The position numbers and the translations under genes were made by a program. Of a DNA stretch of 64,000 bases, positions 54,237 through 56,581 are shown one piece after another. Origin of the DNA: Inmirania thermothiophila (GTDB taxonomy: Bacteria > Pseudomonadota > Gammaproteobacteria > DSM-100275). The stretch is from contig NZ_RJVI01000002.1 of the NCBI RefSeq assembly GCF_003751635.1, positions 372,001 through 436,000 on the forward strand. The letters are read 5' to 3'. Numbering within the stretch: the first letter of the stretch is position 1; every line of letters starts with the position of its first letter. Under the pieces are notes generated by a model. It did no database searches. It saw nothing but the letters and a program-made list of their open reading frames with translations, and was not told the origin of the DNA.

Positions 54237-54270
54237 CCACCCCCACCGCCCTCGCCCCGGGCGTTGGACA

Positions 54271-54303
54271 GCTATTGCGAATCATTCCGTTTTGCATTAG
54301 CAT
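54271..54303 (+). promoter_or_regulatory. Promoter with overlapping Fur-like box
   Basis: -35 TTGCGA (54275-54280) and -10 TAGCAT (54298-54303) with 17-bp spacer. The 19 bp 54271-54289 match 12 of 19 positions of the Fur consensus, with GAATCATT at the core, and overlap the -35. The stretch is markedly A+T-richer than its surroundings. Confidence 0.5.
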
Positions 54304-54373
54304 CCCCCCCTGCCTTCAGCGATTCCTAATCTCGAGCACGGCTCGAACCACACGGGGAAGGAGAGACCGCACC

Positions 54374-54682
54374 ATGAGCAGCAATGACATCCGCACCACC
54401 GACCTGCGCCGCCGCCGCGCCCTCGCCCGCCTCGGCCTCGGGGTCGCCGCGGCCTACGTCACCCCCACCCTGCTGACCCTGAGCGACGCCCGCGCCAGCG
54501 GCGCCTCCAGCGGCGGCGAAAAGAGCGAGTGGGTCTCCACCGGCAACAAGAAGCGCACGGGCGGCGAGGACGGCGGCGCCTCGTCGGCAGGCTCGGGGGC
54601 GCGGCACGAGGCGGCGAGCGGCGGCTCCTCCGGGGGATCCGGCGCCGAGGGCGAGGCCGCCGGCGGCGCCTCCCGCGGCTGA
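54374..54682 (+). CDS. Ser/Gly-rich exported small protein, possible modified peptide
   Basis: A 102-residue protein. Arg12-15 followed by a hydrophobic stretch (19-36) and ARA at 39-41 form a Tat- or Sec-like signal. The mature part (42-102) is low-complexity: 13 Ser and 19 Gly in 61 residues, with a single Trp (WVSTGNKKR) and no Cys. GGAAGGAGAG precedes the ATG. The following genes encode an HprK-like kinase and a PqqD-like protein with almost no gaps, so this may be their substrate; I infer phosphorylation of Ser residues as one possibility. Family unrecognised. Confidence 0.6.
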   Translation: MSSNDIRTTDLRRRRALARLGLGVAAAYVTPTLLTLSDARASGASSGGEKSEWVSTGNKKRTGGEDGGASSAGSGARHEAASGGSSGGSGAEGEAAGGASRG

Positions 54683-54683
54683 C

Positions 54684-55577
54684 GTGCGCGCCCCTCTGCG
54701 GCCTTCCGGGCCGGAGACCTGGGCCGTACCGGAGCTCTCTGCGCACCTCGTCCTGCGGGGTGCCGGGGCGCTCATCGCGCCCCTGCGGGCGGTGCTTCGC
54801 GACTGGTCCGTCGTACCCGTGCAGGGGACCCCGCCCGGTCCCGGCATCGCCATCCGGCACCGCGAGGGGGCCTACGAGCGATGCTCGCCGTGGACCGAGG
54901 CCCCGCGGCGGTTCCGTGATCCGGTGGACGCGGTCTGCGATCTGGTGGTGGACCTCGTCCATGCCTACGTCGCCGCCCGCCCGGAGCGGCTCTGTCTTCA
55001 CGCCGCGGCGGTGGAGACCGCCTCCGGCATCCTCCTCATCCCCAGCACCTACCGCAGCGGCAAGAGCACCCTGGCGACGGCGCTCGCGGCGCGCGGGGCA
55101 CGGCTGTTCTCCGACGACGTGGCGCCGCTCGGCCCCGCGGGCGAGGTGGAGGCGCTGGGGATGCTGCCGCGCCTGCGCCTGCCCCTGCCGGCCGGCCTCG
55201 GGGCCGCGGCGCAGGCGCTGACGGCGGCGCATCCCGGTCCGACCAGCGCGCGCTACCGCTACCTGGCCCTGGACGCGGCGGGGCTCGCCCCCCGGGGCAC
55301 GCGGCGGCCGGTGGCGGCCATCGTCACCCTCGAGCGCGCGGAAGGGGCGGCGCCCGCCCTGATGGAGGGCGACGCCGACCACGCCCTCCAGCATCTGCTG
55401 CTTCGCAACTTCGCCCGCGGGCCGCTGCCGAGCCGGATCTTCCTGCGGCTGCGGCGGCTGGCGGCCGCGGTGCCCTGCTACCGCCTGCGCTACGGGGAGG
55501 CGGCCGAGGGGGCGGCGCTGCTGGCCGAACGGTTCGCCCCCCTCGCGCCGCGGGAGGTGCTGGACCGTGCCGGCTGA
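54684..55577 (+). CDS. HprK-related serine kinase-like protein
   Basis: A 297-residue protein with the HPr kinase/phosphorylase-like P-loop: STYRSGKSTL (121-130; GxxxxGKS-type), preceded by LHAAAV (His106) and followed by FSDDVAPL (Asp144-145, metal binding). It resembles HprK-related kinase A. Related kinases phosphorylate serine on the end of lasso peptide precursors; others have unknown targets. GTG start one base after the upstream TGA. It overlaps the PqqD-like gene by 11 nt. No true HPr protein is encoded nearby. Confidence 0.75.
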   Translation: MRAPLRPSGPETWAVPELSAHLVLRGAGALIAPLRAVLRDWSVVPVQGTPPGPGIAIRHREGAYERCSPWTEAPRRFRDPVDAVCDLVVDLVHAYVAARPERLCLHAAAVETASGILLIPSTYRSGKSTLATALAARGARLFSDDVAPLGPAGEVEALGMLPRLRLPLPAGLGAAAQALTAAHPGPTSARYRYLALDAAGLAPRGTRRPVAAIVTLERAEGAAPALMEGDADHALQHLLLRNFARGPLPSRIFLRLRRLAAAVPCYRLRYGEAAEGAALLAERFAPLAPREVLDRAG

Positions 55578-55851
55578 GCGGTGGGTACGGCGTGCGGACA
55601 TCGCCGTGGAGGCGGTGGGGGAGGCCCTCTATCTGGTGGACGACGCCGGCGGGCGCATCCACCGGCTCGACCCCGTGGGGGCGGCGGTGTGGCGGCTGCT
55701 GGAGAGGCCCGTGGGCGCGGCCGAGATCGCGGCGGTGCTGGCCGAGGCCTTCCCGGAGGCGGGGCGGGCGCGCATCGAGGGCGACGTGGCGGCCCTGCTG
55801 CGGCGGCTGGCCGAGGAGGGGCTGGTCCGGCCGGCCTCGGAGGCAGGCTGA
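55567..55851 (+). CDS. PqqD-family peptide-binding protein
   Basis: A 94-residue protein with the PqqD layout: LYLVDDAGGRIHRLDPVGAAVWRLLE (about 21-46) then a helical end with LLRRLAEEGLVR. PqqD-type domains bind the leader of a peptide and present it to a modifying enzyme. Here it lies directly behind an HprK-like kinase, an arrangement called HPr-rel-A systems. GTG start within the kinase gene. No radical SAM or B2 protease gene is present. Confidence 0.8.
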   Translation: MPAERWVRRADIAVEAVGEALYLVDDAGGRIHRLDPVGAAVWRLLERPVGAAEIAAVLAEAFPEAGRARIEGDVAALLRRLAEEGLVRPASEAG

Positions 55852-55934: not shown

Positions 55935-55968
55935 TTGCCTTCGGGCCGGAAACTGTTTATATGAACAG
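55935..55968 (+). promoter_or_regulatory. imuA promoter with LexA box
   Basis: TTGCCT (55935-55940), 17-bp spacer, TATATG (55958-55963). The LexA box CTGTTTATATGAACAG (55953-55968) is CTGT-N8-ACAG and covers the -10. The ATG at 55970 coincides with the expected transcription start. Confidence 0.85.
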
Positions 55969-55969
55969 T

Positions 55970-56581
55970 ATGCCGGTGGAGCGACTCATCGCCGAGGGGC
56001 GGGTCTGGCGGGGACGGCAGGGCCTCCCGGCGGGGCGTGCCCTGGCCAGCGGCTGGCCGCCCCTCGATGCCCTTCTGCCGGGCGGCGGCTGGCCGCAGGG
56101 CGGGGTGGTGGAGATCCTCCCCGCGGCCCCCGGCATCGGCGAGCTCGGCCTGCTGATGCCGGCGCTCGCCGCCATCGCGGCGTGGGGCCGGCCCCTCCTC
56201 TGGATCGGACCGCCCCGCCTCCCCTATCCCCCGGCCCTGGCGGCCTGCGGCATCGCCCCGGGGCGCAGCCTCCTCGTCCGGGCCGAGGGGCGGGAGGCCC
56301 TGTGGGCGGCGGAGCAGGCGCTGCGCTGCGAGGACTGCGGCGCGGTCCTCCTGTGGCCGGGGTGCGTGGGGCCGCGCGAGGCGCGGCGGCTGCAGCTCGC
56401 CGCCGAGGAAGGGGGCACCCCCTGCTTCACGCATCTGCCCCCGGACCACCCGCCGACGCCGGCGGCGCTGCGCCTGCTCCTGCGCCCCGCCGGCAACGGG
56501 CTCGAGGTGCGCATCGCGCGCTGCCGCGGCCGCTGGCCGGCAGGCCCCGTGGTGCTGGAGCGGCGCGGTGCTCTGGCTTAG
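55970..56581 (+). CDS. imuA: ImuA (SulA/RecA-like translesion accessory protein)
   Basis: A 203-residue protein with the RecA-like core of ImuA: LASGWPPLDALLPGGGWPQGGVVEILP (25-51) with a degenerate P-loop, then LLWIGPPRLPYPPALAA. It cooperates with ImuB and DnaE2 in damage-induced mutagenesis. The ATG at 55970 has no ribosome binding site but is 7 nt after the -10, so the mRNA is probably leaderless; an upstream ATG at 55925 lies before the -10 and is excluded. It overlaps imuB by 14 nt. Tightly controlled by LexA. Confidence 0.88.
   Translation: MPVERLIAEGRVWRGRQGLPAGRALASGWPPLDALLPGGGWPQGGVVEILPAAPGIGELGLLMPALAAIAAWGRPLLWIGPPRLPYPPALAACGIAPGRSLLVRAEGREALWAAEQALRCEDCGAVLLWPGCVGPREARRLQLAAEEGGTPCFTHLPPDHPPTPAALRLLLRPAGNGLEVRIARCRGRWPAGPVVLERRGALA

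Follow-up and report, generated by a model that had tools for sequence, protein, structure and literature searches.

A conserved three-gene cassette for predicted leader-guided phosphorylation of serine-rich exported proteins

The cassette and its surroundings

The cassette described here lies in a 64,000-nucleotide stretch of the Inmirania thermothiophila genome (the window), and comprises the genes for a small precursor protein, a kinase and a PqqD-like protein of the recognition element (RRE) type, behind a weak Fur-like site.

54271–54289, + strand: Fur-like site in the promoter region, a 12/19 match; function unsupported, site not conserved upstream in relatives
54374–54682, + strand: small Ser/Gly-rich precursor gene; ATG start, 102 aa; leader homologues adjoin the kinase gene in 35 of 35 evaluable loci
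54684–55577, + strand: HprK/PEPCK-fold kinase gene; GTG start, 297 aa; model of pLDDT 90 with PEPCK and HprK/P fold matches
55567–55851, + strand: PqqD-like RRE gene; GTG start, 94 aa; PF05402 above cut-off, lasso B1 proteins the best solved-structure matches

A single nucleotide separates the precursor and kinase genes, and the kinase and PqqD-like genes overlap by 11 nt. The sequence-only reading of this DNA had described three genes 1 nt apart or overlapping, a signal-bearing first product of 102 residues, an HprK-related second product and a PqqD-type third. The ORF coordinates bear this out; the second assignment draws on the HprK/PEPCK fold of the predicted structure, the match to TIGR04352 being sub-threshold, and the third on a Pfam PqqD (PF05402) score of 54.6 bits against a cut-off of 23.4. 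The reading had also found no radical SAM, cyclase or protease gene, and none occurs within the cassette or immediately beside it. Upstream of the cassette is lexA and downstream of it are imuA/imuB, so it is not explained by its neighbours. Scans for sigma-70 promoters and terminators gave no match on the cassette strand. A perfect SOS-box pattern, CTGTTTATATGAACAG, occurs once in the window, where chance predicts 0.37 occurrences; it spans 55953–55968 and shortly precedes what is probably the real start of imuA, an ATG near 55970. The cassette is placed between lexA and the imuA-imuB mutasome genes.

The Fur box that had been proposed over the promoter is present as a 12/19 match, but its regulatory role did not survive comparison. 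Two other sites of at least 12/19 occur within the 64 kb, shuffling of the local AT-rich stretch reaches 12 matches in 2.6% of cases, and no Fur site is conserved upstream of the precursor gene in relatives. We reject Fur regulation of the cassette on the grounds of this weak match and its lack of conservation.

Conservation and distribution

A protein search of GTDB genomes yielded 20 loci, and profile searches with the kinase alignment, which supplied further members, covered 369 genomes in the class and 398 in the phylum, together with 12 of an alphaproteobacterial-side family (f210) and 101 of a gammaproteobacterial family (f171). Scores fall into three groups: roughly 220 bits upward for true members, 112–152 bits for a second, intermediate type, and around 62 bits for HprK_rel_A-type kinases. 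We examined 38 kinases of the cassette type, 35 of them in evaluable loci; L004, L006 and L009 were excluded for their position at contig ends. The loci span the gamma-, alpha- and "delta"-proteobacteria, including Thermodesulfobacteriota and one MAG filed under Myxococcota. The distribution is patchy, true members being present in just 6 of the 369 class genomes.

The sequence-only reading depended on the small gene being conserved beside the kinase in relatives, and proposed mining genomes for co-occurrence of the three families. A gene for a short leader-bearing protein adjoins the kinase in all 35 evaluable loci, and a PqqD-like domain accompanies 38 of 38 kinases. The precursor gene is usually upstream of the kinase, and is divergent from it in the Thalassospiraceae/Rhodospirillaceae clade. 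When the leader model alone was run over 274 class genomes, strong matches were confined to kinase-bearing genomes; in 20 of 20 kinase-bearing genomes searched individually, the leader gene adjoins the kinase. In one genome a His/Tyr-rich paralogue with SYSRPS (L087 12067–12393, minus strand) provides a second precursor, roughly 3.5 kb away from the first.

Low-complexity secreted proteins are common, and the small protein could in principle be an unmodified Gly/Ser-rich secreted protein whose gene order is incidental. The linkage, however, persists across very different neighbourhoods and phyla, and leader and kinase type co-occur without exception in the genomes searched, which makes an incidental arrangement exceedingly improbable.

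No extra gene is shared by the cassettes, and their neighbours vary by lineage. Three distant lineages (L003 4588–5502, L005 533–1486 and L013 4518–5453) have a gene for a DUF3108-like lipoprotein, with Pfam matches below cut-off, immediately before the precursor gene. A phage or plasmid origin was considered and rejected, as IMG/VR contains no relative and plasmids only two partial Shinella matches at 39.5% identity.

The loci of the second kinase type have no adjacent leader gene and were kept separate. In three genomes with this type, leader-bearing proteins are encoded about 40 kb from the kinase, a putative pairing. These are small Pro/Gly-rich proteins with CPPG-type motifs (L088 8456–9220, L089 7658–8284, L090 7771–8058), paired in two of the three genomes, and the distant HprK-type kinase is RegA-linked; they are possibly a second variant of the system.

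The precursor: a predicted docking motif within an export signal

54374–54496, + strand: leader/export signal, residues 1–41; RRRR, hydrophobic core and AxA at 39–41; from the leader alignment and its position-wise conservation
54455–54472, + strand: YVTPTL, the YxxPxL RRE docking motif (Y28, P31, L33); Y and P invariant in the leader alignment
54497–54679, + strand: mature Ser/Gly-rich part, residues 42–102, proposed phosphorylation substrate; from its composition and Ser-periodic counterparts in most relatives

The leaders of relatives combine basic residues, RR in most cases, with a hydrophobic segment and, in most, AxA. Within this export signal YxxP is invariant, with L, F, M or V at the second position after the proline, and a motif of this type is what RREs bind in the leaders of lasso peptides and linear polyphosphorylated peptides (LPPs) (PMC13381572; PMC10368454). 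Five member genomes supplied 30 Tat-type signal matches as controls, and none of these has YxxP in that region; one of the 30, L130, is probably no true signal. The leader would direct export through Tat or Sec: the Tat models TIGR01409 or TIGR02811 match few members and do not match the window protein, and TatC is present.

The 61-residue mature part contains 13 Ser, 19 Gly and no Cys, exactly as the sequence-only reading had counted. Its Ser enrichment is significant (P=3.5e-7) against the 3.7% Ser of neighbouring genes, and its Gly content likewise far exceeds their 10%. Among the relatives compared, the sequences that follow the leader are unrelated apart from repeated Ser, which occurs in SG blocks, SEPSEPSEP, SVPSVPSVP, SYSRPSYSRP, GSRGSR and TTPSKTTTPS. 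Ser spacing is significantly periodic in most members (lag 3, 5 or 6) and weakly so in the window protein. No single target Ser is invariant among the members compared. Counted from the published positions, Ser3 lies 18 residues past the motif Tyr in LppA (PMC13381572) and 19 in BsfA (PMC10368454); Ser45 and Ser46 of the window protein lie 17 and 18 residues past it, and 29 of 35 relatives have a Ser 14–21 residues past it.

In Thalassospiraceae and relatives a dihaem cytochrome c forms the continuation of the tail, as tested with PF09626 in L011. In L007, L008, L011 and L012 the precursor gene, divergent from the kinase, encodes the leader, a Gly-rich stretch and the dihaem cytochrome c. These members are Ser-poor (8–9%), and in three of the four leaders carrying such a tail KK replaces RR, as would be expected if a c-type cytochrome were exported by Sec.

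The PqqD-like protein

55783–55785, + strand: Asp73 of the RRE, predicted holder of the leader Tyr; D in 38/38, aligned with TbiB1 Asp and PbaB1 Gln (Q79)

The PqqD-like domain is a discrete protein in 12 of the 38 loci and is joined to the kinase C-terminus in 26. Its closest solved relatives by sequence are the lasso B1 proteins TbiB1, PbaB1 and TfuB1, and the top fold matches of its model (pLDDT 92) are the TbiB1-leader and TfuB1-leader complexes. In RRE-leader structures, an Asp grips the YxxP Tyr (LppB D70), and for the WxxP Trp of PbaA that part is played by the PbaB1 residues Q79 and E75 (PMC13381572). Asp73 was equated with LppB D70 through the equal four-residue spacing to a pocket Phe (F74 and F83), and we predict from these alignments that this invariant Asp pairs with the invariant leader Tyr.

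The kinase and its altered P-loop

54999–55001, + strand: His106, counterpart of BsfK H148; invariant in the kinase alignment, with BsfK-like spacing to K and DD
55041–55067, + strand: variant P-loop P120-S-T-Y-R-S-G-K-S128; all 38 members keep GKS and lack the first Walker Gly, and 31 of 38 have Arg at P-loop position 5
55113–55118, + strand: Asp144-Asp145, counterpart of BsfK D186-D187; invariant in the alignment and in 38/38 members
55170–55190, + strand: RLRLPLP motif (163–169), family signature; RxRxPxP in 37/38

The likeness of this enzyme to HPr kinase/phosphorylase is in fold alone: its model matches the PEPCK/HprK fold, and it scores 12.6 bits against Hpr_kinase_C (PF07475; cut-off 33.3). 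H106, K127, S128, D144 and D145 are spaced as in the BsfK motif. Of the H-G-G-G-K-S-D-D motif of lasso and LPP kinases, the H, last G, K, S, D and D are present and the first Gly is absent from all 38 members, the P-loop consensus being P-[S/E/N/A/D]-x-x-R-[A/S]-G-K-S. The BsfK change G163A, at the place equivalent to the missing Gly, harmed solubility and activity (PMC10368454). Given the importance of that residue in BsfK and its absence here, the chemistry or the rate may differ. This absence, the Ser-poor cytochrome members and the lack of an invariant Ser count against phosphorylation of the precursor.

The P-loop bears on two further explanations. The RRE and the HprK-fold enzyme may add another modification to the Ser-rich protein, such as nucleotidylation, or phosphorylate it solely on the way to another group; the missing Gly, with Arg in most members, favors this, as does the NTP transferase that acts beside the kinase in LPP and paeninodin clusters (PMC13381572). 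We consider it unlikely, since the cassette has no second enzyme, the catalytic H, K, S, D and D are kept, and both characterized RRE-guided relatives compared are phosphotransferases.

Alternatively, the kinase-RRE pair could be a signal-peptide chaperone or export checkpoint that binds the leader YxxP and spends ATP on holding or releasing the exported protein, without modifying it. The docking motif within the export signal, the fusion of kinase and RRE in most members, the altered P-loop and the wide variety of tails, including a cytochrome domain, would all suit such a role. The recurrence of Ser in otherwise unrelated tails, often at regular spacing, and the continued conservation of the HprK-fold catalytic residues argue against it, and we regard it as quite unlikely.

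Comparison with known systems

LPPs, the products of lpp clusters in Bacillota, were described in 2026 (PMC13381572). The cassette resembles these clusters in its discrete RRE, HprK-like kinase, linear precursor, YxxP leader, variable C-terminus and lack of a macrocyclase, and in the predicted use of an RRE Asp for the leader Tyr. The LPP leader consensus YxxPxVLxHQxIxFETxxS is, however, not matched by the window leader, YVTPTLLTLSDARAS, and LPP clusters carry an SpI-like peptidase, an NTP transferase and an MsbA-like transporter, none of which is in the cassette; we therefore do not file it as an LPP cluster. It also differs from LPPs in a leader that doubles as an export signal with AxA, in the frequent fusion of RRE to kinase and in the P-loop without its first Gly. 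The best reading is that the cassette is LPP-like in action without being a member of that group. The sequence-only reading had taken the lack of radical SAM, cyclase and protease genes to set the locus apart from known RiPP clusters; this was too strong a claim, because the Bacillota LPPs are linear, depend on a kinase and an RRE, and have no cyclase (PMC13381572).

The clusters for phosphorylated lasso peptides (paeninodin, and the Bsf cluster of Bradymonas; PMC10368454) share the HprK-like kinase, the PqqD-like B1 protein and a [Y/W]xxPx[L] leader. Here, in contrast, the leader is the export signal, the tail is mostly a Ser repeat with no lasso core, and the adjacent genes examined include neither a B2 protease nor a C macrolactam cyclase, for which reason the cassette is not filed as a lasso cluster.

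HPr-rel-A systems (TIGR04352/TIGR04353) likewise have an HprK-fold kinase and an adjacent PqqD-like gene in bacteria, and the cassette could be a diverged example. It matches both models weakly, with 52.5 bits for the kinase (TIGR04352; cut-off 200) and 20.1 bits for the PqqD-like protein (TIGR04353; cut-off 35), and a separate locus in the same genome has HprK-type, PqqD-like and nucleotidyltransferase-like genes. Both scores are nonetheless well below the curated cut-offs, the P-loop differs, and the cassette has no nucleotidyltransferase. In 13 HprK_rel_A-type loci no match to the leader model exceeded 8 bits, and the kinase tree places the cassette type largely apart from the HprK_rel_A type, strict monophyly being without full support. 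An origin as a diverged HPr-rel-A system is thus very unlikely. The separate locus (L002 271–3259; C3 near 170 kb, also L102), which is HPr-rel-A-like, additionally encodes a signal-bearing 185-aa protein with SPGYWKNH and no Pfam match, which may be another substrate.

Maturation chaperones of the TorD/DmsD type are comparable in that a cytoplasmic protein holds a Tat signal until maturation is complete; the predicted signal-peptide binder here differs from them in its unrelated fold, being an RRE, and in its place beside a kinase.

The open-licence literature gave no earlier description of the cassette, only the LPP and lasso work. We conclude that the cassette is a well-supported and apparently undescribed variant of RRE-guided peptide phosphorylation in which leader and export signal are merged.

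A model for phosphorylation before export

Our comparative data suggest a model of leader-guided peptide phosphorylation followed by export of the Ser-rich protein, to which we assign a probability of about 0.7. The PqqD-like protein, acting as the RRE, would grip the YxxPxL of the leader once the small protein has been synthesized, and offer the Ser-rich tail to the HprK-fold kinase, which would phosphorylate one or more Ser, probably starting just past the leader. The same leader would next serve as the Tat or Sec export signal, and signal peptidase would cleave after AxA, so that a low-complexity protein bearing phosphate ends up beyond the cytoplasm. The housekeeping export machinery and signal peptidase would stand in for a dedicated protease and transporter. 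Since RRE binding and membrane insertion would share one segment, export could additionally be gated by the step at which the RRE lets go of the leader. For the extracellular role, metal binding or matrix formation are guesses.

The core idea of leader-guided phosphorylation by an HprK-like kinase, put forward in the sequence-only reading, gains strong comparative support from the 35/35 linkage, the kinase-PqqD fusions, the invariant YxxP and the invariant Asp of the tyrosine pocket. The characterized systems act in a comparable manner: BsfK phosphorylates Ser3 of its precursor and is accelerated by the RRE BsfB1 (PMC10368454), and LppK phosphorylates a linear peptide several times at Ser3 (PMC13381572). 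The single changes Y-17A and L-12A in BsfA left phosphorylation unimpaired (PMC10368454), so the motif need not be essential to the kinase step.

More tentatively, and with rather less than even confidence, we propose that these precursors form a new class of secreted proteins in which an RRE docking motif is embedded in a Tat/Sec signal and a Ser-repeat tail passes a checkpoint of RRE-guided (poly)phosphorylation ahead of export, with kinase and RRE merged in most lineages and the same machinery serving a secreted dihaem cytochrome c in one clade.

Beyond the clusters for lasso peptides and Bacillota LPPs, the cassette adds to kinase- and RRE-based peptide phosphorylation a compact module of two or three genes in gamma- and alphaproteobacteria, Thermodesulfobacteriota and the MAG filed under Myxococcota. 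It combines RiPP leader and bacterial export signal in one segment, which would explain the absence of a protease and transporter of its own. The predicted products are secreted and possibly multiply phosphorylated Ser-repeat proteins, of a kind that would escape RiPP mining that looks for cyclases, radical SAM enzymes or short precursors.
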